From Nitratireductor arenosus (lineage in GTDB: Bacteria > Pseudomonadota > Alphaproteobacteria > Rhizobiales > Rhizobiaceae), in the NCBI RefSeq assembly GCF_009742725.1, contig NZ_WPHG01000004.1, positions 310,001-374,000 of the forward strand: a DNA stretch of 64,000 nucleotides, in the 5' to 3' direction. Every line of letters begins with the position of its first letter. Position 1 is the stretch's first letter. Shown one piece after another: positions 44,801 through 64,000 of the stretch. The translations under genes and the position numbers were made by a program. The notes under the pieces were generated by a model that was not told the DNA's origin, searched no databases, and saw only the letters and a program-made list of their open reading frames with translations.

Positions 44801-45646
44801 CTAACGCGCGGCCACCACGGTCTGGCGCTGCGCACCGAGCCCGTCAATGCCGAGTTCGACGACGTCGCCCGCGCGCAGATAGCGTGGCGGCGTCTTGCCC
44901 ATGCCGACGCCCGGAGGGGTGCCGGTGGAGATGATATCCCCCGGCTGCAAGGACATGAAGCGGCTGATATAGGAAACCAGGAAAGCCGGCTTGAAGATCA
45001 TCGTCGCCGTCGATCCGTCCTGCATGATCTCGCCGTTCAGCTTGAGCCACATCGGCAGCGAGAGCGGGTTTTCGACCGCATCGGCCGGCACCAGCCAGGG
45101 ACCGGTCGGCCCGAACGTGTCGGCCGACTTGCCCTTGGTCCACTGCCCCTCGTGCTCGAGCTGGTAGGCGCGTTCGGATACGTCGTGCACGGTGCAATAG
45201 CCGGCCACGTGGTCGAGCGCTTCGGCTTCGTCGACATATCTGGCCGTCCGTCCGATCACCACGCCGAGCTCGACCTCCCAGTCGGTCTTTTGCGAACCGC
45301 GCGGCAGGACGAGGTCGTCATTGGGGCCGCAGATCGCCGATGTCGCCTTCATGAACAGGATCGGTTCGGCAGGGACCGCGGCTCCCGCCTCGGCCGCATG
45401 GTCGGAATAGTTGAGGCCGACGCAGATGAATTTTCCCGTGCCGGCCACGCAGGGGCCGAGCCGCGGATCGCCCTCCACCTTCGGCAACGAGGAAGGATCG
45501 ATCGTCTTCAGCCGGGCGAGCGCCCGCGGATCGAGCACCTCTCCAGCCAGATCGTCGACGTGAGCCGACAGGTCGCGCAGCGCGCCCCTGTCATCGACAA
45601 GCCCCGGCCGTTCCCGTCCGGGCGCACCATAACGCACGAGCTTCAC
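44801..45646 (-). CDS. Fumarylacetoacetate hydrolase (FAH) family protein
   Basis: A 281-aa member of the FAH/acylpyruvase superfamily with the active-site entry GLNYSDHAAE (77-86), metal ligands in DWEVELGVVIG (Glu124 and Glu126) and VHDVSE (Asp155), and KGKSADTF (171-178). Members cleave or hydrate 2,4-dioxo acids, and this subgroup resembles 2,4-diketo-3-deoxy-sugar-acid hydrolases and ureidoglycolate lyase-annotated enzymes. GTG at 45646 follows GGAGAAACGATT. It is the last gene of the leftward ABC-ridA-rraA-SDR-FAH operon. Confidence 0.9.
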   Translation of the reverse strand: MKLVRYGAPGRERPGLVDDRGALRDLSAHVDDLAGEVLDPRALARLKTIDPSSLPKVEGDPRLGPCVAGTGKFICVGLNYSDHAAEAGAAVPAEPILFMKATSAICGPNDDLVLPRGSQKTDWEVELGVVIGRTARYVDEAEALDHVAGYCTVHDVSERAYQLEHEGQWTKGKSADTFGPTGPWLVPADAVENPLSLPMWLKLNGEIMQDGSTATMIFKPAFLVSYISRFMSLQPGDIISTGTPPGVGMGKTPPRYLRAGDVVELGIDGLGAQRQTVVAAR

Positions 45647-45719
45647 AATCGTTTCTCCAAATTTGTCACAGACAAGGCCGATGCGGCTCCGCGCGGCATC
45701 GGCGCGCGGGGCCAATGGA

Positions 45720-46457
45720 TCAGGCGGTCCAGCCGCCATCGATGACATAGGCCTGGCCGGTGGTGAAAGTCGCCCCGGCCAGATGTAGCGCAAGATCGGC
45801 GATCTCGTCGGGCGTGCCGATGCGCCCCATCGGCTGGCGCGCGATGAAGGCCGCCCTGGCGGCCTCGTAGTCGCCGCCCGCCCGCATTCTCTGCTGGAGC
45901 GAGGGACTGTCGACCGTTCCCGGACAAATCGCATTGCAGCGGATGCCGCGGGCGACGAAATCGGCGGCCACGGATTTGGTCAGGCCGATCACCGCCGCCT
46001 TGGTGGTGGCGTAGACGAACCGGTTGGGAGCGGCCTTCACGCTGGAAACCACCGACGCGATGTTGACGATCGCGCCGTCGCCCTGCTCCAGCATGCCGGG
46101 CATGACGGCACGAATGGTGCGCATCATCGCGCGCACGTTGACGTCGACGGCGCGGTCGAACTCCGCGTCCGTAGCGTCCATGATCGTGCCGGAATGCACG
46201 ATACCGGCGCAGTTCATCAACACATCGAACGGCCCGTTTTCGTCGACCAGCGCGCCGATCGCGTGTTGGTCGCACACGTCGAGGCCGGCCGTGCGGATGC
46301 TCGCCGCCCCTTCCAGGCCGGCAAGCGCGCTGCGGTCGATGTCGGTGGCGAGCACATGCGCGCCCGCCGCGGCCATGCGCTCAGCGCAGGCCCGGCCGAT
46401 GCCGGCGCCTGCCGCGGTGATGAGAACCCGCTTTCCCGTCAGGGGCGACACGGTCAT
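45720..46457 (-). CDS. Short-chain dehydrogenase/reductase
   Basis: A 245-aa classical SDR with the nucleotide loop TAAGAGIGRA (14-23), an NCAG stretch, and the Ser135-Tyr149-Lys153 catalytic set (NIAS, YATTK). Asp39 after the second strand (ATDIDR) suggests NAD preference. It resembles hydroxybutyrate/2-keto-3-deoxy-L-fuconate-dehydrogenase-type SDRs, which matches the FAH neighbour, since the two act in sequence in that sugar-acid route. It lies 3 nt after the RraA-like gene. Confidence 0.87.
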   Translation of the reverse strand: MTVSPLTGKRVLITAAGAGIGRACAERMAAAGAHVLATDIDRSALAGLEGAASIRTAGLDVCDQHAIGALVDENGPFDVLMNCAGIVHSGTIMDATDAEFDRAVDVNVRAMMRTIRAVMPGMLEQGDGAIVNIASVVSSVKAAPNRFVYATTKAAVIGLTKSVAADFVARGIRCNAICPGTVDSPSLQQRMRAGGDYEAARAAFIARQPMGRIGTPDEIADLALHLAGATFTTGQAYVIDGGWTA

Positions 46458-46460
46458 GGC

Positions 46461-47138
46461 CTACAGGATCCGGTGGCGCGTGAAGATGGTGCGCAGCGAT
46501 TCGCCGGCCGCCAGCTCGTTGCGCACGGTGGTTTCCGCACGCACCTTGGCCAGTGCCGCGCCGACCACGTCGACGATCAGTGCGCGCGGCACGATCACCG
46601 TTCCGTCCTCGTCGGCGAAAATCAGATCGCCGCTGTTGACGTCGACGCCGCCGATCTTGCCCGGCACGTCGTAAAGCACCAGCTTACCGCGATATTTGGT
46701 GTCGACCGGCGTCGTGCCGGCACACACGACCGGAAAGCCCATTTCACGGATCATCCGAGCGTCGCGCACCGAGCCGTCGGTGACGAAACCGCCCGCCTTG
46801 AGCACCTGGGCGCGGGTCGACAGCAACTCGCCCCACGGCGCGATATGCGCCAGCCCGTGGCAGGCGAGCACCGGCACCTCGTTCGGCTGCAGGCTGTCGA
46901 CCAGATCGATCTCCTCGCCATAGACGTCGAGTTCCTCGCTGTCGTGATAGACCGGCATGTAGATGCCGACCCTGGCAAGACCGCAGAGCGGCTTGGACAC
47001 GTCGAGCAACCGCATGCCGGCGCGCGGCGACTGGTTATAGAGACCGTGACGGTCGAGCGTGTCGCTCAAGACGGCGGCATAAAGCTCGCTGCGACACGAT
47101 TCGATCGCGTCGTGAACGGTGGTCGGCATTTCGCTCAT
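46461..47138 (-). CDS. RraA-like/HMG-aldolase-fold protein
   Basis: A 225-aa protein of the RraA superfamily, which includes 4-hydroxy-4-methyl-2-oxoglutarate aldolases and oxaloacetate decarboxylases. The central GFVTDGSVRDARMIREMGFPVVCAGTTP holds the conserved Arg-Asp pair that binds metal and oxo acid (residues about 119-125). In a catabolic operon an aldolase or decarboxylase role is much likelier than RNase E inhibition. It sits between ridA and the SDR gene. Confidence 0.85.
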   Translation of the reverse strand: MSEMPTTVHDAIESCRSELYAAVLSDTLDRHGLYNQSPRAGMRLLDVSKPLCGLARVGIYMPVYHDSEELDVYGEEIDLVDSLQPNEVPVLACHGLAHIAPWGELLSTRAQVLKAGGFVTDGSVRDARMIREMGFPVVCAGTTPVDTKYRGKLVLYDVPGKIGGVDVNSGDLIFADEDGTVIVPRALIVDVVGAALAKVRAETTVRNELAAGESLRTIFTRHRIL

Positions 47139-47177
47139 GAGATGGGCCTTTGTATTGATGGGTAACGGGAGGGCCGG

Positions 47178-47549
47178 TCAGACCGGCTTGTAGGCGACGA
47201 CTTCGATCTCGATCTTACCGTCGACGACAAGCGGCGAAACGACGGTGGAGCGCGCCGGCGGGGCGCTGCCGAAATGCTGCGCATAAACCTTATTGAAGGC
47301 GCCGAAATCACGCGCGTCGTCGAGCCATACCGTGGTCTTGACCACGTCAGCGAGCGTGCAGCCGCATTTTTGGAGAACCGCAACGATGCGCTGGATCGTC
47401 AGTTCGGTCTGCTCGGCGATGTTGCCGTTGATGATCGTGCCGGTCTCGTCCAGCGCGGCCTGACCGGACAGAAACAAAAAGTCGCCGGCGCGCACGGCAG
47501 GCGCAAGCGGCAGGGGAGTTTTGGGGTCGACGCCGATCCGTTCGATCAT
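47178..47549 (-). CDS. RidA/YjgF-family imine deaminase
   Basis: A 123-aa RidA-fold trimeric protein with the family stretch FLFLSGQAALDETGTIINGNIAEQTELTIQRI and the C-terminal KIEIEVVAY. It hydrolyses reactive enamine/imine intermediates from deamination or dehydratase reactions to oxo acids. The substrate-binding Arg of archetypal RidA (Arg105 region, ARST here) appears present. Co-operonic with amino-acid-type ABC genes, implying an amine-bearing substrate. Confidence 0.88.
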   Translation of the reverse strand: MIERIGVDPKTPLPLAPAVRAGDFLFLSGQAALDETGTIINGNIAEQTELTIQRIVAVLQKCGCTLADVVKTTVWLDDARDFGAFNKVYAQHFGSAPPARSTVVSPLVVDGKIEIEVVAYKPV

Positions 47550-47580
47550 GATGTCCTCGTCTTGAGCTTGGATAAAAGTC

Positions 47581-47610
47581 CCCGCCCGGCCGCCGGGCGG
47601 CCGGGCGGGG
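47581..47610 (-). terminator. GC-rich hairpin between the ABC binding-protein gene and ridA
   Basis: CCCGCCCGGCC (47581-47591) and GGCCGGGCGGG (47599-47609) form a perfect 11-bp stem with a 7-nt loop. It lies after the binding-protein stop on the minus strand and before ridA. It probably stabilises or partly terminates the transporter message. Confidence 0.6.
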
Positions 47611-47624
47611 GCGGATGAGAAGAA

Positions 47625-48407
47625 TTATTCGCTGAACATGGCCGACCATTCGGCCTTCAGGCCCTGCTGCTCGGCCGCTTCCTGCCAGATATTGACCAGG
47701 CGCAGGAAATGATACTCGCCGCGCCGGATCCCGTAGGAATAGCCCTGCGGATCCAGCGGCTCGTCGGTTTGGAGAATACGCACGTCGAGATTGTCGTTTT
47801 CGGCGACCAGCTTCCTGGCCGAAGCCGTATCGCTCACCATGGCGTCGGCGCGGCCGCTGGCGACGTCGACTAGCAGCGTGGAAAGCTTGTCGGTCACCAG
47901 CGATTTCACCTCGGCCTTCTTGAAGAAGCGCTTGGCGAAGCCCTCGTCGGCGGAGCCGGAGGTGACGACGATCACCTTGCCCTCCTGGTCGAGCGCGGCC
48001 AGATCGGCGATGTCGGCGTTGGGGCCGACGGTCACGCTTTTGGTTTCGTGGCCGGACGGCTCGCTGAACAGAATGCGCATGGCGCGCTCCGGGGTGCGGA
48101 ACATCGGTGCCATGACGATGTCGCATTTGCCGGCCTCCAGGCTGGGGATCAACGTGCCCCAGGTGGCGTCGACATGCTCGATCTCGACGTCCATCGCCGC
48201 GGCCAGGTTCTTGGCGGCCTCGACGTCGGACCCCTTCCATTCATTGCTGGCCGGATCCTTTACCGCCCAGGGAAACGCCTCGGCGTGGCAGGCTTGCAGG
48301 ACGCCGCGATCGCGAATTTCCTGGATCTGATTATCGGCCGCGCCGGCGATCCCAGGTGCGGCGACCAGGGCGGCCAGCGCGGCCGCGATAAGCGTTTTGG
48401 ATTTCAT
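47625..48407 (-). CDS. Polar amino acid-type ABC substrate-binding protein
   Basis: A 260-aa SBP (family 3) with signal peptide MKSKTLIAAALAALVAAPGIAGA and a domain beginning IQEIRDRGVLQACHAEAFPWAVKD. It has the acidic/Arg ligand features seen in amino-acid receptors (GSDVEAAKNLAAAM; EAGKCDIVMAPMFRTPER). The start at 48407 with GGAGG upstream. It belongs to the permease-permease-ATPase-SBP unit. Ligand unknown. Confidence 0.9.
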   Translation of the reverse strand: MKSKTLIAAALAALVAAPGIAGAADNQIQEIRDRGVLQACHAEAFPWAVKDPASNEWKGSDVEAAKNLAAAMDVEIEHVDATWGTLIPSLEAGKCDIVMAPMFRTPERAMRILFSEPSGHETKSVTVGPNADIADLAALDQEGKVIVVTSGSADEGFAKRFFKKAEVKSLVTDKLSTLLVDVASGRADAMVSDTASARKLVAENDNLDVRILQTDEPLDPQGYSYGIRRGEYHFLRLVNIWQEAAEQQGLKAEWSAMFSE

Positions 48408-48466
48408 AGTGGCTCCTCCAAGATTGAACGTCTCTGTGTGGCACCGCCGCATGGCGGGCCGTCGTC

Positions 48467-49213
48467 TCACAACACCTTCGACAAAAACGCCTTCTGGCGT
48501 TCGTCCTCGGGCGCGGTGAAGAAGGTTGCGGGCGCGGCGTCGACCAGAAGCTGGCCCTCGGCCATGAAAAGGATGCGATCGCCGACCTCGCGCGCGAAAC
48601 CCATTTCGTGGGTGACGACGACCATGGTCATGCCGCCGCGGGCGAGATCGCGCATGACGTCGAGCACCTCGTTGACCATTTCGGGATCGAGCGCGGAGGT
48701 CGGTTCGTCGAACAGCATGATCTCGGGTTCCATCGCCAGCGCCCGGGCGATCGCCACGCGCTGCTGCTGGCCTCCGGAAAGCTGGGCCGGGTATTTGTCG
48801 ATCTGCTCGCCGATGCCGACCCGCGTCAGCAGCTTCTGCGCCGCCTCGTCGGCCTCGGCGCGGCCGAGGCCGCGCGCCGTCATCGGCGCCAGCACGAGGT
48901 TCTCGCGCACCGTCATGTGGCCGAACAGGTTGAAGTTCTGGAACACCATGCCGACCCGGCGGCGGATCGTCTCCAGCTCGCGGCGCGGCCCCGGCAGGGT
49001 GTGGCCAAGCACGTTGACCGTACCGGCATCGATCGCCTCGAGCCCGTTCATGGTCCGAAGCAGGGTCGACTTGCCGCTGCCCGAGGGGCCGATCACGCAG
49101 ACGACCTCGCCGGTTCCGATTTCGGTCGAAACCCGGTCGAGAGCGACGAACGTGCCGTAGCGCTTGACCACGTCCGTGCAGCGGACCGCTTGCTTTGTCG
49201 CGCCGGCGCTCAT
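48467..49213 (-). CDS. Polar amino acid-type ABC transporter ATPase
   Basis: A 248-aa ATPase of the GlnQ/HisP class with Walker [10 protein letters not shown] (near 42-50), signature LSGGQQQRV, Walker [13 protein letters not shown], and H-loop VVTHEMGFA. It powers the importer formed with the two adjacent permeases. Its start is 25 bp after the second permease gene. Confidence 0.93.
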
Positions 49214-49238
49214 GGGTGCTGTGTCCGGAGAATGGAGA

Positions 49239-49904
49239 TCATCGTGACGTCCTCTTGAAATGCCTGGTCTCGGCGCGGCGCACGTAAAGGCTGAGCGGAA
49301 AGATCAGCATGAAGAACAGCACCGCGACCGCCGTGAGGAATTCGAGATAGGCGAAGGTCTCGTTGCCCAGCACGGTCGCCTGATAGACGATCTCGGCGAC
49401 GCCGATCGTCGACAGCAGGCTCGAGGCCTTCAGCAATTCGGTGAGAAAGTTGACGAAGTTCGGCATCATGCGCCGGACCGCCGGCGGCAATACGACCCGG
49501 CGCCAGATCGTGGATGCGGGCAGGCCGAGCGAAAAGGCGGCTTCCAACTGTCCCTTCTCGGTCGACAGGATCCCGGCGCGCAGGATCTCCGCGACATTGG
49601 CGGCCACGAACAGCGACAGCGCGACGATACCGCTGATCTCGGCCGACATGCGCAGCCCGAACAGCAGCGGCAGACAGGAATAGACCCAGAAAATCAGCAC
49701 CACCTCGGGAATGGTGCGGAAGAAATCGATCACGAACACCGCGACCCGGTAGCCGGGACCACGGCCCGACAGCTTGCCCAGGCACAGCACGACGCTGCCG
49801 AGGGCGCCGAACAGAATCGCGTAAAAGACGATGCGCAGCGTGACCAGCAGACCCTGCAGCAGCAGCGGATAGTTGGCTTCGAGCGCGTTGAGGTCGAATG
49901 TCAT
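49239..49904 (-). CDS. Polar amino acid-type ABC permease (second)
   Basis: A 221-aa inner-membrane permease of the HisM/GlnP class with about five helices and the EAA-loop [24 protein letters not shown] that contacts the ATPase. It starts 2 nt after the first permease stop, so translation is coupled. Confidence 0.91.
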
Positions 49905-49906
49905 GA

Positions 49907-50692
49907 TCAGCGCCCCTCACGACGGGCGAGCGAACGCTCGAGCCAATGCGTCGACTGGCTTATGGCGTAGCCGAACAAAAAGTAGATCAGCGCGGCCAGC
50001 GTCAGGATTTCGATCGGCTTGAAGATCGCGTTGGCGATGCGCGTGGAGACCGTCATCAGCTCGCCGACCTGCAGCACGGTCAGGATAGCGGAAGCCTTGA
50101 AAAAGCTGATGGTCATGTTGACGAAGGGCGGGATCATCACCCGGAAGGCGGGCGGCAGGATGACGCGCCGCCAGCGCGTATAAACCGGGATGCCGAGCGC
50201 GTCGGACGCCTCGCCATAGCCGGCGGGGACCGCGCGGATGCCGCCACGCACGATCTCGCCGAAATAGGCGCTGGCCTGCAAAACGATGGCGATGACGCCG
50301 CTAACGATGGCGCTGGTGTTGATGCCGGACACCAGCGGCAGGGCGAAATGGATCCACAGCACTTGGACCAGGATCGGCGTATTGCGGAAAAGCTCGACAT
50401 AACCGATGGCGAACCAGCGCGCCGGCGCCAGCGGCACTTGCGTCAAAACGGCGAGAATAGTGCCGAAGAAGATGCCGCAGGCCGCGGCGGCCGCCGTCAG
50501 CACCAGGGTCATCACCAGCCCCTCGGCCAATGTGCCGCGATATTGCCATAAAACGGCGAAGTCGAGCCCACCGACGATCTTCCAGTTGAGATTGATCAGG
50601 GCGAGCGCAATCAGCCCCGCGAGACCCGCGGTCAAGCCGCCGCGTATCCAACGTCCGCCCGATGCTTCGATCAGCTCTCCGAAAAGGCCCAT
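49907..50692 (-). CDS. Polar amino acid-type ABC permease (first)
   Basis: A 261-aa permease with an N-terminal extension and helix (WIRGGLTAGLAGLIALALINLNW), periplasmic loop and the EAA-loop GEASDALGIPVYTRWRRVILPPAFR. It is the first gene of the leftward operon, divergent from the IclR regulator across about 200 bp, which makes IclR the likely controller. Confidence 0.91.
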   Translation of the reverse strand: MGLFGELIEASGGRWIRGGLTAGLAGLIALALINLNWKIVGGLDFAVLWQYRGTLAEGLVMTLVLTAAAAACGIFFGTILAVLTQVPLAPARWFAIGYVELFRNTPILVQVLWIHFALPLVSGINTSAIVSGVIAIVLQASAYFGEIVRGGIRAVPAGYGEASDALGIPVYTRWRRVILPPAFRVMIPPFVNMTISFFKASAILTVLQVGELMTVSTRIANAIFKPIEILTLAALIYFLFGYAISQSTHWLERSLARREGR

Positions 50693-50892
50693 GCCCTTGC
50701 CTGCCCGCCTGTCACGGCTTTATGTCAAAACGTTGATCCGATATTTCCGGTACAGCGTTCCAGTTTTTCATTGACATGTCGAGTCCTTTTTGCGTTTTTT
50801 GTCGCTAAGGTGATCAGCGCTGCCGCCGTGCGGCACGAAAAACCCCGTCGCCGGGTCCCTCCCGTCGATCGAATTGCATCAGGAGTGTGATG
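50693..50892. promoter_or_regulatory. Divergent promoter region between ABC operon and iclR
   Basis: About 200 bp serve both operons. They are AT-richer between 50720 and 50810, with TTGACA-like hexamers on both strands (50771-50776 rightward). The 11-mer TTCCAGTTTTT (50758-50768) recurs before the PotABCD-type operon (55227-55237). These are candidate sites for the adjacent IclR regulator. Confidence 0.4.
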
Positions 50893-51699
50893 ATGTCTCG
50901 AGACCTGCAGGCCGAGGATGCCCCGATCCGGGCGATCTTGAACGCCATGGACGCGCTGGAGTTCATCGCCCAGTCGCGCCAGGGCGTTGGCGTGCGTGAA
51001 CTGGCCCGCACCCTGCGCCTGACGCCGGCGACCGCGAGCCGGGTGCTCGCCTCGCTGCAGGCCAGCGACATGCTGGATCAGGACCCCGACACGGCGCGCT
51101 ACCATCTAGGGCCGCGCGCCCTGAAAATCGCCGCCGACCACAGCCGCAGCATCAATCTTCACGGCGTCGCCGAATCCTATTTGCGCGACCTGGTCGACGC
51201 GACCGGGGAGACGATTTTCCTCGGCGTTCTCGACGGCGCGGAAGTCGTCGTGATCAACCGGATCGATTCGCCGCAGCCGCTGCGGATGGCCGGCGAGCTC
51301 GGCACCCGCGAACCCGCCCACTGCACCGCGCTCGGCAAGATCATGCTCGCCTCCAAGCCGACGCACGAACGCGCCGACCTGGTCGCCCGCCTCGCCATGG
51401 AGCCGGACACCGGCAACCGGGTCATGACGCGCGAGGCGCTGGAGGCCGTGTTGGAGGAAACCGCCGGACGCGGCTGGGCGCTCGACGACGAGGAGCATTT
51501 CGAGGGCGTTCGCTGCATCGCCGCCGGCATCGTCAATTCCGAGGGCCGGACCATCGCCGCGATCAGCGTCTCGGGGCCGGCGGTGCGGATGACGGACGCG
51601 AAAATTGCCGCGACCGTGCCAACGCTGCGTGCCATGGCGGCTGCGGTCTCGCGCCGCCTCGGCTACCGTCCGGCCGATGCCGTCAACGCCCCACGCTGA
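50893..51699 (+). CDS. IclR-family transcriptional regulator
   Basis: A 268-aa IclR protein with an N-terminal winged HTH (GVGVRELARTLRLTPATASRVLASL, residues about 29-53) and a C-terminal GAF-like effector domain (GETIFLGVLDGAEVVVINRID; HCTALGKIMLAS). The start at 50893 has AGGAG at the best spacing; GTG at 50887 and ATG at 50890 are alternatives. It heads the rightward peptidase-like genes and is divergent from the ABC operon, so it likely regulates both. Confidence 0.9.
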   Translation: MSRDLQAEDAPIRAILNAMDALEFIAQSRQGVGVRELARTLRLTPATASRVLASLQASDMLDQDPDTARYHLGPRALKIAADHSRSINLHGVAESYLRDLVDATGETIFLGVLDGAEVVVINRIDSPQPLRMAGELGTREPAHCTALGKIMLASKPTHERADLVARLAMEPDTGNRVMTREALEAVLEETAGRGWALDDEEHFEGVRCIAAGIVNSEGRTIAAISVSGPAVRMTDAKIAATVPTLRAMAAAVSRRLGYRPADAVNAPR

Positions 51700-51712
51700 G
51701 GAGACGGTCGGG

Positions 51713-54342: not shown

Positions 54343-54346
54343 GGCC

Positions 54347-55226: not shown

Positions 55227-55269
55227 TTCCAGTTTTTGGTCCGCCGACGCAGTTTTCCGATTGGAAAAC
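55227..55269 (+). promoter_or_regulatory. Operator candidates upstream of the PotABCD-type operon
   Basis: GTTTTCC-GATT-GGAAAAC (55252-55269) is a perfect palindrome 101 bp before the binding-protein start. Next to it, TTCCAGTTTTT (55227-55237) repeats an 11-mer found in the iclR divergent promoter. IclR-family operators are often TTCC/GGAA dyads, so this may be an IclR site. Confidence 0.45.
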
Positions 55270-55370: not shown

Positions 55371-56408
55371 ATGATCGGCACATTTTCGCGCATCCTCGCC
55401 GGCGCCGCGTGCGCGGCCATGCTGGCAGCAGGCCCGGCAGCGGCGCAATCCAAGACGCTGACGATTTCCTGGTGGGGCTTCAACGGCGACAAGCTAAACG
55501 AGTACATCGTCCAGCCGTTCCAGAAACAATGCGGCTGCGAGCTCGTTTTCGAGACCGGCAACAATGCCGACCGGCTGAACAAGATCAAGATCCGCAGCGG
55601 CGGCGGCGTCGACGTCGCCTATTTCACCGATTCCTATTCGCAGATCGGCATCGAGGAAGGCCTGTTCCAGCCGATCGACCGCTCGAAGATTCCCAATATC
55701 GACGGGCTTTACGAGATGGCGCAGGCGCCGCAGGGCGAATACGGCCCGGCCTATTCGATCGGCCGCGTGGGCATCGTCTACGATTCGGCCAAGGTCGAGC
55801 CGGCGATCACGCGCTGGAGCGATCTGTGGCGCGACGACCTGAAAGGCCAGATCTCGTTGCCCGGCATCACCACGACGGCCGGCCCGATGGTCGTCATGCT
55901 GGCCGGCGACAAGGCCGGCACCGACGCCTTCGAGGACGACGGCCCGGCCTTCGCCGAGATCGAGGCGCTGAAGCCGAACGTGGTCAAGAACTACAAGACC
56001 GGTTCGGAGATGATCAATCTATTCTCGACTGGCGAGGTGACGGTGTCGCTCGCCCAGGATTTCGCGCTGGCGCAGTTGCAGGCGGCGGTGCCAACAGTGG
56101 TGTGGGCCGATCTGGAGGATGGCGCGGTGGCGACGTTGAATACGGTCAACATCCCCAAGGGCGCCGAAAACGTCGAACTTGCGCATGAATTCATCAATTT
56201 CATCCTCGATCCCGAACTGCAAAAGACGCTCGCCGCCAACGGCGTCGACGCACCGGTGGTGAAATCGGTCGAGCTGACGCCGGAACAGGCCAAGCAGTGG
56301 ACCTATGGCGCGGCAATGATCGACAATCTCAAACGGGTCGACTACGCCAAGATGAACGCAGCCAAGAAGGGCTGGATCGACCGCTGGAACGAAGTCTTCG
56401 GCATGTAA
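55371..56408 (+). CDS. Spermidine/putrescine-type ABC substrate-binding protein
   Basis: A 345-aa PotD/PotF-like receptor with signal peptide to about residue 25 (MLAAGPAAAQ) and the opening LTISWWGFNGDKLNEYIVQPF. It contains the ligand region YSIGRVGIVYDSAKVEPAITRWSDLW. Acidic residues typical for polyamine recognition are only partly recognisable, so another small amine or amidine ligand is possible. The start at 55371 follows GAGGGCAAGAC. It is 168 bp ahead of the permease genes. Confidence 0.9.
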   Translation: MIGTFSRILAGAACAAMLAAGPAAAQSKTLTISWWGFNGDKLNEYIVQPFQKQCGCELVFETGNNADRLNKIKIRSGGGVDVAYFTDSYSQIGIEEGLFQPIDRSKIPNIDGLYEMAQAPQGEYGPAYSIGRVGIVYDSAKVEPAITRWSDLWRDDLKGQISLPGITTTAGPMVVMLAGDKAGTDAFEDDGPAFAEIEALKPNVVKNYKTGSEMINLFSTGEVTVSLAQDFALAQLQAAVPTVVWADLEDGAVATLNTVNIPKGAENVELAHEFINFILDPELQKTLAANGVDAPVVKSVELTPEQAKQWTYGAAMIDNLKRVDYAKMNAAKKGWIDRWNEVFGM

Positions 56409-56576: not shown

Positions 56577-57404
56577 ATGCCCAAACGTTTCGCCGGCTGG
56601 ATACTCGCCTTTCCCGCGACCATGCTGGTGGCGCTGTTCCTGCTGGTTCCGGTCACGCTGACGATCGCCACCACGTTCGGCGACGGTTCGGGGCCGATCG
56701 CGCCCTATCTCGATTTCTTCAACAGCGGCTTCCGCCGCACGGTGTTGTGGCGCACGCTCGAGGTCTCGCTGGCGACGACGGCGATCTCGCTCGTTCTGGG
56801 TTTCCTGACCGCCTATGTGGTGTCGCGCGCGCCCGGCCGGCTGAAAAGCATCCTGATTATCGCCGCCGTGTTCCCGCTCCTGACCGGCGTGGTGGTGCGC
56901 TCCTTCGCCTGGCTGATCATCCTGGGCAAGAACGGCATTTTGAACAATTTCCTCACCTGGATCGGTGTTATCGGCGAACCGCTGTCGATGCTCTATACGG
57001 AAGGGTCGGTCATCGTTGCGATGGTCTATCTGTTCACGCCGCTGATGATCCTGACCCTGGTCGGGGTGCTCGAGAACATCCCCGACGACGTCATCCAGGC
57101 CTCCGCCTCGCTGGGCGCCACGCCGGCCGCCACGTTCCGGCAGGTCATTTTCCCGCTCGCCGTGCCCGGCCTGATCGTCGGCGCGGTGCTGGTCTTCACC
57201 GGGTCCTTCACCTCCTACGCCACGCCGCAGCTTCTCGGCGGCGAGCGGCAGATGATGATGGGCACGCTGATGTACCAGGCCGCCATGGTCAATTTCGACT
57301 GGGTCAGCGCCTCCACCATCGCCACGATCATGGTCGTCATCACCGTGTCGGTGGTGCTGGCCATGACCCGCATCGCCAAGCGCCTCAACCCGATGACGAC
57401 GTGA
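56577..57404 (+). CDS. Spermidine/putrescine-type ABC permease (PotB-like)
   Basis: A 275-aa permease with six helices and the EAA-loop IQASASLGATPAATFRQVIFPLAVPG. It overlaps the next gene by a single base. The start at 56577 follows a weak ribosome site (CGGAAATCCCGACC). Confidence 0.9.
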   Translation: MPKRFAGWILAFPATMLVALFLLVPVTLTIATTFGDGSGPIAPYLDFFNSGFRRTVLWRTLEVSLATTAISLVLGFLTAYVVSRAPGRLKSILIIAAVFPLLTGVVVRSFAWLIILGKNGILNNFLTWIGVIGEPLSMLYTEGSVIVAMVYLFTPLMILTLVGVLENIPDDVIQASASLGATPAATFRQVIFPLAVPGLIVGAVLVFTGSFTSYATPQLLGGERQMMMGTLMYQAAMVNFDWVSASTIATIMVVITVSVVLAMTRIAKRLNPMTT

Positions 57405-58192
57405 TGAACACAACCATGCCCCGCTCTCTCGTCGCCTTCGCGGCGGTGGTCTATGTCTTTCTGGTCGGGCCGCTGATCATCGTGATCGGCGCAGCCCTCA
57501 GCGACACCTCCTATCTGACCTTCCCGCCGCAGGGCCTGACGTTCAGATGGTTCGAGAACATTTTCGAGATTAGCGCGTTTCGCCGTACCATCGTGACCAG
57601 CATGCAGCTTGCCTTCCTGGCCACCGGCCTGGGGCTTCTGGTCGGCATTCCGGCCGCCTACGCGCTCAACCGCCACCGCATCCAGCTTCCGTCATGGCTG
57701 TCGACGGTGTTCGTGCTGCCGATCCTGGTGCCGGAAATCGTGCTCGGCTTCTCCTTGCTCAAATCGGTCGCCGTCGGCGCCTCGCTGCCGATCTTTTTGT
57801 CGCTCCTGATCGGCCACACGCTGATCGTACTGCCTTATTGCGTGCGGGTGATCTCGGCCAGCCTGTCCTCCTTCGACTTCTCGATCGAGGAGGCCGCGAT
57901 CAGCCTCGGCAGCCGGCCGGCGAAGACCTTCTTCACCATCGTGCTGCCGAATGTGCGCTCGGGCGTGATCGCCGCCTTCATCCTGGCCTTCATCACCTCG
58001 ATCAACGACGTGTCGACCTCGCTGTTTCTGACCGGGCCAGGCATCTCCACGCTGCCGATCCAGATTCTCGCCCATGTCGAGCAGTTCTTCGACCCGACGA
58101 TCGCTTCCGTATCCGTTTTGCTGATGGTGCTGACCGTCGCCGTGATGGCGATCGTGGAACGCACGCTCGGCCTGACCTTCCTGACAAAGTAG
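57404..58192 (+). CDS. Spermidine/putrescine-type ABC permease (PotC-like)
   Basis: A 262-aa permease, six helices, with EAA-loop IEEAAISLGSRPAKTFFTIVLP. ATG at 57404 shares one base with the previous stop (TGATG). It pairs with the PotB-like protein to form the channel. Confidence 0.9.
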   Translation: MNTTMPRSLVAFAAVVYVFLVGPLIIVIGAALSDTSYLTFPPQGLTFRWFENIFEISAFRRTIVTSMQLAFLATGLGLLVGIPAAYALNRHRIQLPSWLSTVFVLPILVPEIVLGFSLLKSVAVGASLPIFLSLLIGHTLIVLPYCVRVISASLSSFDFSIEEAAISLGSRPAKTFFTIVLPNVRSGVIAAFILAFITSINDVSTSLFLTGPGISTLPIQILAHVEQFFDPTIASVSVLLMVLTVAVMAIVERTLGLTFLTK

Positions 58193-58197: not shown

Positions 58198-59259
58198 ATG
58201 ACCCAGCCGCTTTCCGTCGAAAACGTCACCGCCCATTACGGCACCACCAAGGTGCTGGAGGACCTGTCGCTGTCCGTTGCAGCCGGCGAACTGGTTTCGC
58301 TGCTCGGTGCGTCGGGTTGCGGCAAGACGACCACGCTGCGCCTGATCGCCGGTTTCCTGGAGCCGACTTCCGGCCAGATCACGCTCGGCGGCCGCGACCT
58401 GACCCGGCTGCCGGCCTATCGGCGCGACATCGGGCTGGTGTTCCAGAACTACGCCCTGTTTCCGCATCTGAGCGTGCTCGACAATGTCGCCTTCGGGCTC
58501 AAGCAGCGCGGCGTCGGCTCGAGCGAACGCGACGGCAAGGCACAGGCCATGCTCGAGCGCGTCGGCCTGTCGGGCCTGTCGGACCGCCTGCCCGGTGCGC
58601 TGTCCGGCGGCCAGAAGCAGCGCGTCGCGCTGGCGCGCGCGCTCGTCATCGAACCGCCGCTTTTGATGTTCGACGAGCCGCTATCCAATCTCGACGCCAA
58701 GCTCAGGATCGACATGCGCGTGGAGATCCGCCAGTTGCAGCGCGCCAACGGCACCACATCGGTCTATGTCACCCACGACCAGGAGGAGGCGTTTTCGATC
58801 TCCGACCGGGTGGCGATCATGAATGCCGGGCGCATCATGCAGTTCGACACGCCCGAAAATCTCTATCAGCGGCCGGCCAACGCCTTCGTCGCGCGTTTCG
58901 TCGGCTTCGAAAACCTGGTCGCGATGCGCGTCGTGGCGCGCGACGGCGACCAGGTGACGGCCGAGGCGGCCGGCGGCACCCGGCTCGAGCTCAGCCAGGC
59001 CAGGTTCGGCGCAATCCCCGACCGGTTCGTGCTGGCGACGCGGCCCGACGGGCTGGCCGTCAGCGCCGACCCGAACGCGCAGGGCATTCCCGCCAAGCTG
59101 GGGCTGCGCACCTATCTCGGGCGCGCCTACCAGTATCAATGCGAGACCGAAGCCGGCCATCTGATCGCCAACGGCACGCTGTCGACGCCGCTGGAGCCCG
59201 GCAATCCGGCGCGGCTGGTGCCGGTGCCCGACCAGTGCTGCGTGCTCGACGCGGAGTGA
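58198..59259 (+). CDS. Spermidine/putrescine-type ABC ATPase (PotA-like)
   Basis: A 353-aa ATPase with Walker A GASGCGKT (near 39-46), signature LSGGQKQRV, Walker B LLMFDEPLSNLDAKL and the H-loop YVTHDQEEAF. A C-terminal TOBE-like domain starts near residue 235. It begins 5 nt after the PotC-like gene. It completes an importer for a cationic or amine compound, whose substrate feeds the hydrolases downstream. Confidence 0.92.
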   Translation: MTQPLSVENVTAHYGTTKVLEDLSLSVAAGELVSLLGASGCGKTTTLRLIAGFLEPTSGQITLGGRDLTRLPAYRRDIGLVFQNYALFPHLSVLDNVAFGLKQRGVGSSERDGKAQAMLERVGLSGLSDRLPGALSGGQKQRVALARALVIEPPLLMFDEPLSNLDAKLRIDMRVEIRQLQRANGTTSVYVTHDQEEAFSISDRVAIMNAGRIMQFDTPENLYQRPANAFVARFVGFENLVAMRVVARDGDQVTAEAAGGTRLELSQARFGAIPDRFVLATRPDGLAVSADPNAQGIPAKLGLRTYLGRAYQYQCETEAGHLIANGTLSTPLEPGNPARLVPVPDQCCVLDAE

Positions 59260-59320: not shown

Positions 59321-60643
59321 ATGACCCTGCTGATCACCAACGCCACGCTGCTGCCCTGCACGCCGGAGATGCCGGTGATCGAGAACGGTTTCGTGCAGAT
59401 CGAGGGCGAGACGATCACCGCGACGGGCGCCGGTCCCGCCCCGGCGATCGACGGCGCCGAGACGATCGACGTCGCCGGCGACATCGTCATGCCGGGCATG
59501 GTCAATCCGCATTGCCATATGGCGATGACGTTGTTTCGCGGCCTCGGCGAAGATGTCGACGACCGGCTCTATCGTTACGTGCTGCCGCTGGAACGCAAAT
59601 TCGTCACGCCCGAGATGGTGCGGGCCGGCACAAGGCTCGCCGCCCTGGAACTGATCGCCGGCGGCGTCACCACCGTAGCGGACATGTATTATTTCGAAAC
59701 CGAGGTCGGCCGTGTGATCGACGAGGCCGGCATGCGCGGCGTGGTCGGCCAGACGATCGCCGATTTCGACCCGCCCGACCACGCCACCATCGACGCCGGC
59801 TTCGCATTGACCGAGGATCTTGTGGCCGAATTCGCAGGCCATCCGCGAGTGATCGCCTCGATCGCGCCGCACGCGCCCTATTCGACCGATATCGCGGTCA
59901 TGAACCGGATCGCGCGCTGGGCCGACGACCACCCCGGCGTGCCGGTGCAGATCCATCTGGCCGAGATGGATTCGGAAATGGACTGGTGCGCCAAGAATCA
60001 CGGGCTTCGTCCAGTCGAAGTGGTCGAGAAGGCGGGGTTGCTGCGCAAGGGGTTGATCTGCGCGCATTGCTTGCACGTGTCGGAAAGCGACATCGAGAAG
60101 ATGGCGCGCGCCGAGGTCCGCGTTGCCCACAATGCGCGCTCCAATGCCAAGGCCGGCCGCGGCATCGCGCCGGTGGAAGCGATGCGGACCGCCGGCCTGC
60201 CGGTCGGGATCGCCACCGACGGGCCGATGAGCGGCAATACGCTCGACCTGTTCTCGCAATTCGCGCCGGTTACCATGTTCCAGAAGCTTCTGGGCCACAG
60301 CCGCAAGCCGATGCCGGGCGTGGAGGTGATCCGCATGGCCACGGTCGAGGGTGCGCGCGTGCTTGGGCTGGACGACCGGATCGGCTCACTGGAGCCCGGC
60401 AAGCAGGCCGACCTGATCCGCATCGACATGTCCGCCCCGCGCCTGCAGCCGGTCTACGATCCCTATGCAACCCTGGTGTTTTCGGCCATGCCGGACGATG
60501 TGCGCGACGTCATGGTGGCCGGATCGTGGCTGATGCGCGACCGCACGGTGCTGACACTTGAACGCAAGCAGGTGCTGCGCGACGCGCTGCAGGTGGCCGC
60601 ACGCTTCAAGGCCGAAATGACACGGATCGACGCCACCGTTTGA
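59321..60643 (+). CDS. TrzA/SAH-deaminase-like metal-dependent amidohydrolase
   Basis: A 440-aa amidohydrolase-superfamily protein. Metal ligands lie in HCHMAM (near residue 66), in IHLAEMD and HCLHVSES, and the proton-relay Asp is in IATDGPMSGNTLD. It resembles adenosine/S-adenosylhomocysteine deaminases, 8-oxoguanine deaminase and chlorotriazine hydrolases, so it probably removes ammonia or a leaving group from an amidine or N-heterocycle. It follows the PotA-like gene by 61 bp. Confidence 0.9.
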   Translation: MTLLITNATLLPCTPEMPVIENGFVQIEGETITATGAGPAPAIDGAETIDVAGDIVMPGMVNPHCHMAMTLFRGLGEDVDDRLYRYVLPLERKFVTPEMVRAGTRLAALELIAGGVTTVADMYYFETEVGRVIDEAGMRGVVGQTIADFDPPDHATIDAGFALTEDLVAEFAGHPRVIASIAPHAPYSTDIAVMNRIARWADDHPGVPVQIHLAEMDSEMDWCAKNHGLRPVEVVEKAGLLRKGLICAHCLHVSESDIEKMARAEVRVAHNARSNAKAGRGIAPVEAMRTAGLPVGIATDGPMSGNTLDLFSQFAPVTMFQKLLGHSRKPMPGVEVIRMATVEGARVLGLDDRIGSLEPGKQADLIRIDMSAPRLQPVYDPYATLVFSAMPDDVRDVMVAGSWLMRDRTVLTLERKQVLRDALQVAARFKAEMTRIDATV

Positions 60644-60749: not shown

Positions 60750-62162
60750 ATGCCCGCCCCGACCGAACAACTCGATGCCGTGCTCGCGCATGTCGACGCC
60801 AATCTGGATCAAAGCCTGGAGCGGCTTTTCGCGTTGATCCGCATCCCCTCGGTCTCGACCGACCCGGCCTATGCCGACGACTGCCGGCGCGCGGCCGACT
60901 GGCTGGCCGGCACGCTCGCCGCGATCGGTTTTGAGGCATCGGCGCGGCCGACCGGGGGCCATCCGATGGTGGTCGGCCACGCGCCGGCGAAGCCGGGGCC
61001 GCATGTGCTTTTTTACGGCCATTACGACGTGCAGCCGGTCGATCCGCTACCGCTTTGGAATTCGGATCCGTTCGAGCCGACGCTGGTTCCGCAGGACAAT
61101 GGCGACATCCATATCGTGGCGCGCGGCGCCTCCGACGACAAAGGGCAATTGCTGACCTTCGTGGAGGCCTGCCGCGCCTGGCACGCGGTGGCGGGCGCCT
61201 TGCCGGTCCAGGTGTCGATGCTGTTCGAGGGCGAGGAGGAATCCGGTAGCGCCAGTCTCGGGCCGTTCCTCGACGAGGCCGGGGCGGAACTGAAGGCCGA
61301 TGTCATGCTGGTGTGCGACACCGACATGTGGGACGACAAGACCCCGGCGATCACGACCATGCTGCGCGGCATCGTGCAGGAAGAAGTAACGGTGCGCTGC
61401 GCCAGCCGCGACCTGCATTCGGGCATGTTCGGCAATGCCGCGCGCAACCCGCTGCAGGTGCTGTCGGAGGCGATCGCGACGCTGCGGGCGCCTGACGGCA
61501 GCGTCACGCTGGACAGATTTTATGATGGCGTAAAACCGCTGCCGGCCGACGTGGCTGAGCGCTGGAAACGGCTTCCCTTCGACGAAGAAGGGTTTTTGAA
61601 GGATATCGGCCTGTCGATCCCGGCCGGCGAGGCGGGCTATTCGGTGCTGGAGCAGGTCTGGGCGCGACCGTCCTGCGAGATCAACGGCCTGTGGGGCGGT
61701 TATACCGGCGACGGCTTCAAGACTGTCATCCCGGCCGAGGCCCACGCCAAGATTTCGTTTCGCCTGGTCGCCGGCCAGGATCCCGAAAAGGTCCGCGCCG
61801 CCTTCCGCGCCCATATACGCGCGCATGTGCCGGAGGATTGCAGCGTCGACTTCGTGGTCCATGGCGGCAGTTCGGCCACCGTGATGCCGATCGACAGCCC
61901 GCTGCTGCAAAAGGCGCTCGGGGCGCTGTCAGAGGAATGGGACTGCGAGGCGGCGGTTGCCGGCACCGGCGGTTCGATCCCGATCGCGACCGTCTTCAAG
62001 GACCGGCTCGGCATGGATTCACTGCTGGTCGGCTTTGCCAAGTTCGACAACCGTATCCACAGTCCAAACGAGAAATACGACCTGTCGAGCTATCACAAGG
62101 GCATCCGCTCCTGGGTGCGCATCCTTGCCGCCTTCGCCGCCGCGGAGACGGAAAGAGCGTGA
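60750..62162 (+). CDS. M20-family dipeptidase
   Basis: A 470-aa M20 metallopeptidase with the zinc-ligand stretches FYGHYDVQPV, GASDDKGQLLTF and EGEEESGSASLG, and the dimerisation lid domain in the middle. It resembles carnosinase/CPG70-like dipeptidases cleaving an amide next to a free carboxylate. Its stop overlaps the nucleoside hydrolase start (GTGA). The start ATG at 60750 follows GGAGACGAC. Confidence 0.9.
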   Translation: MPAPTEQLDAVLAHVDANLDQSLERLFALIRIPSVSTDPAYADDCRRAADWLAGTLAAIGFEASARPTGGHPMVVGHAPAKPGPHVLFYGHYDVQPVDPLPLWNSDPFEPTLVPQDNGDIHIVARGASDDKGQLLTFVEACRAWHAVAGALPVQVSMLFEGEEESGSASLGPFLDEAGAELKADVMLVCDTDMWDDKTPAITTMLRGIVQEEVTVRCASRDLHSGMFGNAARNPLQVLSEAIATLRAPDGSVTLDRFYDGVKPLPADVAERWKRLPFDEEGFLKDIGLSIPAGEAGYSVLEQVWARPSCEINGLWGGYTGDGFKTVIPAEAHAKISFRLVAGQDPEKVRAAFRAHIRAHVPEDCSVDFVVHGGSSATVMPIDSPLLQKALGALSEEWDCEAAVAGTGGSIPIATVFKDRLGMDSLLVGFAKFDNRIHSPNEKYDLSSYHKGIRSWVRILAAFAAAETERA

Positions 62163-63079
62163 GCGACAATCCGCCCCGGCCGGTGATCATCGACACCGAT
62201 CCCGGCATCGACGACGCAATCGCGATCCTCGCCGCCCTCGCCGCGCCAGCCTTCGACATTCGCGGCGTGACCACGGTCGCCGGCAATATCGGCATCGAGA
62301 CCACCACGCGCAATGCCGGCCGCATCCTGGCGCTGGCCGGGCGCGGCGACATTCCGGTGATCGCCGGGGCGGCCGCACCGCTGGCGCGCAAGGGCTTCGA
62401 CACCGCCGACATCCACGGCCGCGACGGGCTCGGCGGGGTGCCGTTTCCCGAACCGCTGGCGCCGCCCGCCGGCGCCGACGCCGCCGGCTGGATCGCGGAC
62501 ACGCTGGACGCGACTGCGCCCGGCACGCTCGACATCCTGGCGCTCGGACCACTGACCAATCTGGCGCTTTTGCTGCGAGACCGGCCGGACACGGCCCAGC
62601 GCGTCGGCCGCATCATCGCAATGGGTGGCGCCATCGACGAGCCCGGCAATATCGGGCCGCGCTCAGAATTCAACCTGGCCGCCGATCCCGAGGCGGCGGC
62701 GGCCGTGCTCGGCAGCGGCCTGCCGGTGACGCTGATCCCGCTCGACGTGACGCGCCGCGTGCGCGCCGCGCGCGCCTATGTGGCGTCGCTGCGCGCGGCC
62801 TCCACCACGGCGGCAACCGCCTCCGCCAACCTGATCGAGGCCTATTTCACCACCACGACGGGCGGCGCCAGCCGGCCGCTGCACGATCCCTGCGTGATGC
62901 TGTTCGCGCTCCGCCCCGAACTGTTCGACTGCGAAGACCTCACCCTGTCGGTCGATATCGGCGACGGTCCCGACGCCGGTGCGCTGACGCCAGGCGGCGC
63001 CGGCGCGCCCAGCGTGGAGGTGGCGCTGGGCGTCGACGCCGACCAGGCGCTCGCGCTGCTTGCCGACGTGCTCGGGTAA
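62159..63079 (+). CDS. Inosine-uridine-preferring-type nucleoside hydrolase
   Basis: A 306-aa nucleoside hydrolase with the calcium/ribose site IIDTDPGIDDA (10-20), GPLTNLALLL and the C-terminal HDPCVMLF. GTG at 62159 overlaps the dipeptidase stop by 4 nt. It splits the N-glycosidic bond of nucleosides, giving a free base and ribose. Its coupling to deaminase and amidase genes argues for degradation of a modified nucleoside or related N-glycoside. Confidence 0.91.
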   Translation: MSDNPPRPVIIDTDPGIDDAIAILAALAAPAFDIRGVTTVAGNIGIETTTRNAGRILALAGRGDIPVIAGAAAPLARKGFDTADIHGRDGLGGVPFPEPLAPPAGADAAGWIADTLDATAPGTLDILALGPLTNLALLLRDRPDTAQRVGRIIAMGGAIDEPGNIGPRSEFNLAADPEAAAAVLGSGLPVTLIPLDVTRRVRAARAYVASLRAASTTAATASANLIEAYFTTTTGGASRPLHDPCVMLFALRPELFDCEDLTLSVDIGDGPDAGALTPGGAGAPSVEVALGVDADQALALLADVLG

Positions 63080-63092
63080 GGCTGAGACCGGC

Positions 63093-64000
63093 TCAGCCGG
63101 TCGCCAGCTCCATTTCGACCAGCCGGGTCCAGAAGGCGACGCCGGAGGCGATCGCGGCGTCGTTGAAATCGTAGCGGCTGTTGTGATGGAGCGCATCGTT
63201 TTCGGCCGGGCCGTTGCCGAGCCAGACATAGGCCCCCGGCACCACCGCGGAAAAATGCGCAAAATCGTCGCCCGCCGTCGATGGTGCGAAGGTGCTGACG
63301 ACCCGCTCGGTCCCCAGCGCCCGTTCGGCCGCGAGCCGGGCGCGCCGCGTCGCCTCGGGATCGTTCACCACCGGCGGGATCTGCCTCATGTAACGATAGT
63401 CGATCTCGATACCGAACATGGCGGCGACCCCGCGCGCGAAGACGCCGATCTCCTCCTCGAGCAGATCGCGGGTTTCGGGCGTATAGGCGCGGGTGGTGCC
63501 GCCGATGCGCACCTCGTCGGGAATGACGTTAAGGGCGTCGAAATCGCCGGCCGAAAGCGCGCAGGCGCTGACGACGGCCGGCTGCAGCGGGTCGACCCGG
63601 CGCGCCACAATCGACTGGATTGCGGCCAGGAAATGGCCGGCGGCGGTGACGGCGTCGCGTCCGAGATGCGGTTTGGCGCCATGCGTGCCCTTGCCCCGGA
63701 AGGTCAGCGTCCAGCGGTCGGAACTGGCCAGTTGAGGGCCCGCGACCGCCGCGATCTGGTCGGTGGCAAGCCCCGGCATATTGTGCAGGCCGTAGACGGC
63801 GTCGACCGGAAAGCGGTCGAAGAACCCGTCATCGATCATCGCCTTGGCGCCACCCCGTCCCTCCTCTGCCGGCTGGAAGACGAAATGCACGGTACCGGCC
63901 AGGTCGGGTTTGTCCGCCAGCGCGCGCGCCGCCCCGAGGAGCATGACCGTGTGACCGTCATGGCCGCACGCATGCATACGGCCTTCAACGGTCGAACGGT
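63093..64000 (-). CDS. M20D amidohydrolase (hippurate hydrolase/aminoacylase-like), partial
   Basis: The gene runs off the right edge: codons upstream of the internal ATG at 63977 continue in frame (RSTVEGR before MHACGHDGH), so the N-terminus is outside. The visible 302 residues contain MHACGHDGHT, FQPAEEGRGG with the catalytic Glu, KGTHGAKPHLGRD and a late DDFAHFS metal ligand. Family members cleave N-acyl amino acids or IAA conjugates. It is convergent with the nucleoside hydrolase gene (13-bp gap), so it belongs to a separate unit. Confidence 0.9.
   Translation of the reverse strand, partial: RSTVEGRMHACGHDGHTVMLLGAARALADKPDLAGTVHFVFQPAEEGRGGAKAMIDDGFFDRFPVDAVYGLHNMPGLATDQIAAVAGPQLASSDRWTLTFRGKGTHGAKPHLGRDAVTAAGHFLAAIQSIVARRVDPLQPAVVSACALSAGDFDALNVIPDEVRIGGTTRAYTPETRDLLEEEIGVFARGVAAMFGIEIDYRYMRQIPPVVNDPEATRRARLAAERALGTERVVSTFAPSTAGDDFAHFSAVVPGAYVWLGNGPAENDALHHNSRYDFNDAAIASGVAFWTRLVEMELATG

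Follow-up and report, generated by a model that had tools for sequence, protein, structure and literature searches.

The window, the 64,000-nt stretch analysed here, is part of contig C10 in the 4.8 Mb genome of Nitratireductor arenosus, and the part under study was the 19 kb from 44801 to 64000. The initial annotation had presented this part as one catabolic island around an IclR-family regulator. All the gene classes that it named were present as intact open reading frames with a family match, which confirmed the observation; its interpretation was partly supported. The 19 kb comprises two separately distributed modules, module 1 (44801–55102) and module 3 (55371 onward), and the island does not extend as far as proposed, since from about 55169 onward the DNA is part of another module with its own, independent distribution. 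We interpreted module 1 as a rare catabolic divergon that moves laterally, is under the control of its IclR protein and serves the breakdown of a nitrogen-rich, alpha-amino-acid-like compound containing an amidine, guanidine or amide bond. We give this reading a probability of about one half.

Module 1 is centred on the IclR gene (50887–51699, plus strand; PF01614, 147 bits), the product of which missed the cut-off of the BhcR model of the beta-hydroxyaspartate cycle (202 versus 350 bits). The minus-strand arm encodes an importer followed by four enzymes. The importer consists of two ABC permeases (49907–50692 and 49239–49904; both above the TIGR01726 cut-off and 86% and 87% identical, respectively, to those of Afifella pfennigii, locus L064), an ABC ATPase (48467–49213; GlnQ/EhuA-like under the cut-offs; Afifella 83%) and a binding protein of family 3, the polar amino-acid type (47625–48407; PF00497; 69.5 bits with the EhuB model TIGR02995, cut-off 190.9). 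Next come a RidA enamine/imine deaminase of 123 residues (47178–47549; PF01042, 100 bits; 90% identical to that of Afifella, 78% to L065 and 68% to L066), and an RraA-like putative pyruvate-type aldolase (46461–47138; PF03737, 90 bits; under the cut-off of all nine NCBIfam models matched; Afifella 76%, L065 64%). The arm ends with an SDR oxidoreductase (45720–46457; PF13561/PF00106 above cut-off; Afifella 57%) and, distally, an FAH-family 2,4-dioxo-acid hydrolase (44801–45646; PF01557, 246 bits), which scored 407.9 bits with the 2,4-didehydro-3-deoxy-L-rhamnonate hydrolase model NF053535 and so missed its cut-off of 500.

The plus-strand arm continues from the IclR gene with an M81 (MlrC-like) metallohydrolase (51713–53185; PF07364 and PF07171 above cut-off; 152.5 bits with NF041767, cut-off 999), an M24 hydrolase of the creatinase/ectoine-hydrolase type (53182–54342; PF00557/PF01321; 217.3 bits with DoeA_2, NF038259, cut-off 575) and an EutA/arylmalonate-decarboxylase-like enzyme (54347–55102; PF17645, 78.1 bits, cut-off 25.9; 88.9 bits with EutA, TIGR02990, cut-off 318). 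Among the NCBIfam matches listed for the module 1 enzymes (for the SDR, the best 25 of 228), none attained an equivalog cut-off. This weighs against our reading, as it leaves the specific activities of these enzymes as guesses.

Distribution of module 1 and its tRNA site

A genome collection of 84,980 species was searched in one scan with the M24 protein as single query, and six loci were obtained (L063–L068). A seventh, L072 (genome G463), was added from searches of sampled genomes; in the large samples, scoring was limited to the 4 to 10 best candidates of each genome. These seven, with an M24 protein at least 45% identical, were taken as the relatives of module 1. L073 (genome G552) was excluded, with an M24 protein of 39% identity and no M81 match on its 9 kb contig. 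Contig ends truncated L066, L072 and L073, as well as L092 and L093 of the module 3 comparison below. The nearest named relative among the loci found was Nitratireductor alexandrii, the M24 protein of which was 97% identical.

The synteny comparison proposed in the initial annotation gave a conserved core. The M81 gene adjoined the M24 gene in all seven other loci, and an EutA-like gene came next in six, in three of them after an inserted aminotransferase gene. The divergent arm of importer and RidA was present in four (L063–L066). An RraA-like gene was found in three of the seven, and an IclR gene in four, the L065 copy included; L072 has, at a distance of about 3 kb from its M24 gene, an RraA-like relative of 36% identity. 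A syntenic block was shared at 47–90% identity by Afifella (11 module 1 genes), a Rhodobacteraceae metagenome-assembled genome (MAG; 10, counting an IclR fragment) and another Proteobacteria MAG (9). As such a block of 9 to 11 genes recurs, the grouping of the module 1 genes exceeds chance. For Afifella, the identities were 68–90%, except for the SDR. The claim that the two arms belong together thus survived around the IclR gene, in four of the seven loci, and failed for the module 3 genes, which were distributed separately.

Several observations on gene content weigh against our reading of module 1. The IclR gene of L065 encodes only an N-terminal fragment. L067, L068 and L072 lacked the divergent importer arm; L067 had only a binding protein of 40% identity at a distance of 5.7 kb, and the binding-protein arginine expected to hold a carboxylate was not kept in L067. 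The EutA-like neighbour was missing in L072. FAH was not found outside Nitratireductor (there was no match in the Afifella or MAG loci), and outside the genus the SDR was found only in Afifella. These two distributions suggest that SDR and FAH may be accessory to the module.

Of 249 genomes sampled from the order, two had an M24 protein of at least 60% identity, the genome of the window included. With the starting genome counted in each case, the M24 profile detected 3 of 385 genomes of the class (one of them L073) and 1 of 398 of the phylum at E 1e-95, and 1 of 274 genomes of the class of the Arenicellales locus at E 1e-90. In the genus sample, at E 1e-60, two of the four genomes had the protein. 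Module 1 is rare yet conserved.

In the window, genes for tRNA-Asp and tRNA-Val (43823–44262) directly precede module 1, which occupies about 11 kb, and the DNA of module 3 begins at 55169–55252. In Nitratireductor genome G630 the order was tRNA-Asp, tRNA-Val, module 3, lon and clpX, and module 1 was absent. As the same tRNA site is there followed directly by module 3, module 1 must have been acquired or lost at the tRNA locus as one block. Gain appears likelier than loss, since compared with those of Afifella the importer, RidA and IclR proteins are 82–90% identical, at or above the level of Lon, a housekeeping protease (81%). In the L065 genome the importer and RidA proteins were 65–78% identical, compared with 68% for Lon. 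The argument for transfer is a weak one, because the catalytic genes other than RidA fall below Lon (57–77% to Afifella and 54–67% to the L065 genome). At the far edge of module 1, no att-like repeat matching the tRNA-Val 3' end was found. The candidates there, two direct repeats (a 12-mer and a 10-mer) and an inverted 11-mer, were rejected, as they lay outside the tRNA and so gave no integrase-type evidence. A tRNA-Met called by ARAGORN beside module 1 in Afifella looked like a false positive by its sequence and was not used.

A palindrome of the TGGAA-N5-TTCCA type was found between the divergent arms, at the equivalent place, in the window (CGGTACAGCGTTCCA, 50748–50762, with no strand assigned), in Afifella and in L065; a shortened variant in L066 was recognised by eye. 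Searches were made with TGGAACAGTGTTCCA, allowing up to three mismatches, and compared with shuffled sequences. The window had one match, at this site, where 0.57 were expected and 38 of 100 shuffles had one, which is not significant alone. Locus L064 had two strand-matches at one site (two were seen in 4 of 100 shuffles), and L065 had one match (41 of 100). No match was obtained in L066, in the module 2 locus (below) or before the first gene of module 3 (55371). Because the consensus was built from the same loci that were searched, the shared palindrome is only suggestive of a putative IclR operator, and both this and the count in the window weigh against our reading.

In N. alexandrii a further set of genes, module 2, was found between modules 3 and 1. 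In it, a second importer and a second EutA-like gene diverge from each other; it has FAH, RidA, DUF3830 and LacI genes and also holds genes for a DapA-like aldolase, an Amidohydro_2 protein and an SDR. In the strain of the window, module 2 is on contig C1 (L079:4279-14215), apart from module 1. There it ends in 78 bp that duplicate, at 97% identity, the 3' end of the EutA-like gene of module 1, which would be a relocation scar if the order in N. alexandrii is ancestral. Module 2, which encodes a LacI protein, has in L079 a perfect palindrome, ATTTAACGTTAAAT, in its divergent promoter region. L066 showed a single same-strand run of IclR, M81, M24, aminotransferase, EutA-like, DUF3830, DapA-like and Amidohydro_2 genes. 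Module 2 has counterparts of the EutA-like, DUF3830, DapA-like and Amidohydro_2 genes of this run, and the EutA-like protein of L066 was slightly nearer to the module 2 copy (55%) than to that of module 1 (52%). The combination of genes of both modules in one run suggests a single pathway for modules 1 and 2.

In L067, three consecutive genes for DUF4143/AAA_14 ATPases (L067:3209-7455) adjoin the gammaproteobacterial M81-M24 operon, and gcvT and gcvP lie just downstream.

Module 3 as an independent neighbour

Module 3 opens with a Pot-type importer, all on the plus strand: a family-8, PotD-like binding protein (55371–56408; closest solved chain 4edp), two permeases (56577–57404, PotB/PotH-like; 57404–58192, PotC-like) and an ABC ATPase (58198–59259, PotA/PhnT-like). 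On the same strand follow an aminohydrolase like 5-methylthioadenosine/S-adenosylhomocysteine (MTA/SAH) deaminases (59321–60643), an M20 dipeptidase (60750–62162; NF006579, 772 bits, cut-off 327; NF006053, 443.7 bits, cut-off 441) and a nucleoside hydrolase (62159–63079). A convergent M20 amidohydrolase gene on the minus strand (63093–64000; TIGR01891, 349 bits, cut-off 154) continues to 64349, beyond the end of the window. The aminohydrolase was closest among solved structures to the MTA/SAH deaminase 4f0r (E 7.5e-73) and stayed under every equivalog cut-off listed (best 355.8 versus 540 bits). The nucleoside hydrolase matched its family PF01156 (274.7 bits, cut-off 34.2) and was closest to the solved RihA; it did not attain the RihC equivalog (222.6 versus 382 bits).

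The distribution of module 3 was followed with this aminohydrolase. An ortholog at E 1e-130 was present in 6 of the 249 genomes of the order sample, that of the window included, and in all five others the M24 protein was not detected even at E 1e-40. Conversely, the six non-Nitratireductor genomes with a module 1-type M24 protein had no ortholog at E 1e-80, an absence that may reflect incompleteness, as four of them were reached through MAG contigs. Orthologs of the second importer, the aminohydrolase and the nucleoside hydrolase were found in none of the seven module 1 loci within about 10 kb on either side (less at contig ends). Within the genus, genome G629 had modules 1 and 3, G630 module 3 only and G631 neither. 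Since the distributions are separate in both directions and G630 has module 3 alone, module 3 is a set independent of module 1. An apparent 19 kb catabolic island can thus be two separately distributed modules lying side by side at a tRNA locus.

These results bear directly on the proposal of the initial annotation that both importers and all the hydrolases act on one compound, N-glycosidic cleavage included. Proximity speaks for a single pathway: modules 1 and 3 are neighbours in the window, and in N. alexandrii they are separated by about 10 kb, with module 2 in between. However, none of the five other aminohydrolase carriers had the M24 protein, G630 has module 3 alone at the same site, no copy of the palindrome precedes 55371, and adenine deaminase and phosphoribosyltransferase genes occur in the relatives of module 3. 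The single pathway was rejected on gene distribution, and we consider it very improbable.

A Pot-type importer lay beside the aminohydrolase ortholog in all five other genomes, in L093 at 34–52% identity and divergently. Near the ortholog, a nucleoside hydrolase and an adenine-deaminase relative were each found in three of the five, and an M20 dipeptidase and a phosphoribosyltransferase each in two. The adenine-deaminase relative (27–65% identical to the annotated one) was in L090, L091 and L092, with the annotated one in L094, and the phosphoribosyltransferase was in L090, L091 and L094. L089 had the importer and aminohydrolase only, and neither L089 nor L093 had adenine deaminase or phosphoribosyltransferase. 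A Qingshengfaniella plasmid unites importer, aminohydrolase, nucleoside hydrolase, M20, phosphoribosyltransferase and adenine deaminase genes, and in the genome of the window a phosphoribosyltransferase gene (52% identity) lies just beyond the end of the window. Module 3 looks most simply like a set for purine-nucleoside salvage. It shares with such salvage the nucleoside hydrolase and the MTA/SAH-deaminase-like enzyme, and its relatives the adenine deaminase and phosphoribosyltransferase; it differs in its two M20 enzymes and in its Pot-type importer. The coupling of two M20 enzymes, a dipeptidase and an aminoacylase-like one, to nucleoside enzymes (60750–64349) would fit salvage of amino-acid-conjugated nucleosides.

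Enzyme chemistry and candidate pathways

By sequence, the closest relative of the M24 protein in the PDB was the ectoine hydrolase DoeA/EutD 6twk (E 3e-37), followed by the Xaa-Pro dipeptidase 5cde (E 2.5e-21). Foldseek with a predicted model also ranked ectoine hydrolase first and included creatinase structures among the matches. The model was poor (pLDDT 68; root-mean-square deviation of 17–19 A to the listed matches), which counts against it, and it contributes the ranking only. In the alignment to 6twk and 5cde, five positions were inspected that bind metal in M24 peptidases. Four of the five were changed, to E239, P250, F321 and S364; the corresponding residues of ectoine hydrolase are E, P, Y and T, and the fifth was Glu in both. 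His222 and Glu239 (numbering of alignment A1), the catalytic pair of the ectoine hydrolase/creatinase type, were invariant in all seven M24 sequences. The protein thus agrees with this type, in which the peptidase ligands are replaced and the catalytic Glu and His retained. By analogy, the altered ligand positions and the invariant pair support chemistry without a metal on an amidine, guanidine or amide, and the peptidase metal site looks to have been lost in this M24 branch. Relatives on plasmids were annotated as Xaa-Pro peptidases in 17 of the 20 records listed (of 37 matched), and those listed were 36–37% identical. As module 1 is small, conserved and movable and brings a regulator and an importer of its own, it should be a tractable route to the function of one M24 branch that carries this annotation.

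The EutA-like protein has one invariant cysteine, in the motif CTSGSF (eight of eight sequences). Two active-site cysteines typify the racemase/isomerase type and two-base racemases; here the position of the second reads IPDTA, with Asp-Thr, and the second cysteine is lacking. The protein also stayed below the arylmalonate decarboxylase/EutA/maleate isomerase model NF052327 (86.8 versus 225 bits). The EutA-like genes of genomes G144, G037 and G038 (the last with one internal stop) had no informative gene context.

The candidates for cleavage of a C–C bond varied from locus to locus: the RraA-like protein in three of seven and its 36% relative in L072, the DapA-like protein in L066 and module 2, and the SDR-FAH pair, which as a pair was confined to Nitratireductor. 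The families of these candidates act on 4-hydroxy- or 4-oxo-2-oxo acids. The solved structure closest to FAH was the L-2,4-diketo-3-deoxyrhamnonate hydrolase 8gsr (E 1.7e-91), so SDR and FAH could oxidise and then split a 4-hydroxy-2-oxo acid. The variation fits one exchangeable, pyruvate-releasing step.

From these data the following route may be drawn for module 1. The family-3 ABC system would import an alpha-amino-acid-like compound carrying an amidine, guanidine or amide bond, and the M24 enzyme would open that bond without a metal, through its conserved His/Glu pair. The M81 enzyme would hydrolyse a further amide bond with a metal, and the EutA-like enzyme would isomerise or decarboxylate through its single cysteine. 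RidA would hydrolyse the enamine or imine set free on deamination. The resulting 4-hydroxy-2-oxo acid would give pyruvate and a small product, either through the RraA-like aldolase or through oxidation by the SDR and hydrolysis by FAH; RraA-like or DapA-like aldolases would give the same outcome at other loci. The IclR protein would control the module. The route is built on gene content, synteny, presence or absence at one site and residue conservation; its IclR control, import specificity, order of steps and products we infer. It agrees with the expectation of the initial annotation that the enzymes import, hydrolyse, deaminate and release oxo acids. Extended to modules 1 and 2 together, it would be an undescribed pathway in which a hydroxy-amino acid occurring in nature, of the cyclic-amidine or guanidino kind, is opened by the metal-independent M24 enzyme and M81 and is taken to pyruvate by the single-cysteine EutA-like enzyme and RidA, a tentative proposal to which we give somewhat less than an even chance. 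Module 1 could in this way reveal a nitrogen source not yet mapped.

Four known systems resemble parts of module 1. The utilisation cluster for ectoine and 5-hydroxyectoine, ehuABCD-eutABCDE (PMC5924519, PMC8739950, PMC13188858), shares with it a family-3 amino-acid-type ABC importer, an M24 protein with the DoeA sequence pattern and an EutA-like protein. In module 1, however, IclR takes the place of EnuR, and M81, RidA, RraA, SDR and FAH that of EutB/C/E, Ssd and Atf. A divergent ectoine/5-hydroxyectoine cluster would explain why ectoine-pathway proteins are among the best family matches of the M24, EutA-like and importer proteins. All module 1 scores were nevertheless under the cut-offs (the DoeA_2, EutA and EhuB scores given above, and 166.8 against 613 bits for EutD, TIGR02993), and EutB, EutC and EnuR were missing from the matches listed for the module 1 genes. 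The M20 protein of module 3 scored 292 bits with the DoeB2 model (cut-off 550). A true ectoine cluster, with EutD (621 bits), EhuB, EhuA and EutB above cut-off, was found on contig C11 of the same genome (L062, C11:74000-93900). On the missed cut-offs and this genuine cluster, the identity was rejected, and we regard it as very improbable. The C11 stretch also has a second DoeA-like M24 gene under the cut-off.

Microcystin degradation by the mlr genes shares with module 1 the two-domain architecture of M81 (PF07364 and PF07171), but the score was far from the MlrC cut-off, as given above, and no MlrA- or MlrB-type match was found among the genes scanned. MlrC cleaves an amide bond in microcystin, and this favours scavenging of peptides or modified peptides, in which M81, M24 and M20 would trim a small imported peptide and RidA, RraA, SDR and FAH process the released residues. 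Both M24 and M81 belong to peptidase clans, and the next-best solved M24 relatives were Xaa-Pro dipeptidases. The altered ligand positions of M24, its closeness to ectoine hydrolase, an importer of family 3 instead of an oligopeptide system, and the assignment of the M20 genes to module 3 all argue against it, and we consider it unlikely.

The non-phosphorylating L-rhamnose/L-fucose pathway ends with an SDR and an FAH hydrolase that yield pyruvate. Module 1 resembles this end in its FAH protein and the adjoining SDR gene, and differs in an FAH score under the 500-bit cut-off and in having an amino-acid-type importer and RidA; no sugar dehydratase was seen among its genes. Creatinase (creatine amidinohydrolase) is in the same fold family as the M24 protein, and its chemistry is metal-independent, of the His/Glu type that we propose here. 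It ranked in Foldseek under ectoine hydrolase and several Xaa-Pro dipeptidases, however, and was absent from the sequence matches at E 1e-20. If the M24 enzyme were a creatinase-type amidinohydrolase, the substrate could be a guanidino amino acid hydroxylated at the gamma position, either gamma-hydroxyarginine or a cyclic guanidine resembling enduracididine, with the remaining 4-hydroxy-2-oxo acid passed to the aldolase. The creatinase structures among the Foldseek matches and the substrates of the C–C cleaving families speak for this, as does the aminotransferase of L067 (64–66% identical to those of L066 and L068), the best NCBIfam match of which was GntE of the guanitoxin pathway. That match, at 378 bits, was under the cut-off of 525, and glutamate-1-semialdehyde aminomutase scored almost as high (375 bits). 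Module 1 of the window lacks the aminotransferase, and no urea-handling gene was identified among its genes. We give this specific substrate a small chance.

The statement of the initial annotation that it could name no known pathway with this exact set still stands, in that no description of the cluster was found in the literature searched, which covered few subscription journals or preprints.

Other M24 relatives were found in different settings. In Afifella and genome G226 (L043 and L044), a Pot-type ABC importer lies between two DoeA-like M24 genes 34–38% identical to that of the window. On plasmids of Agrobacterium fabrum and Pantoea (L076 and L077), M24 relatives of 36–37% identity, annotated as Xaa-Pro peptidases, stand beside a GntR gene in clusters with importer, M20 and mandelate-racemase genes, which are perhaps further undescribed catabolic sets.

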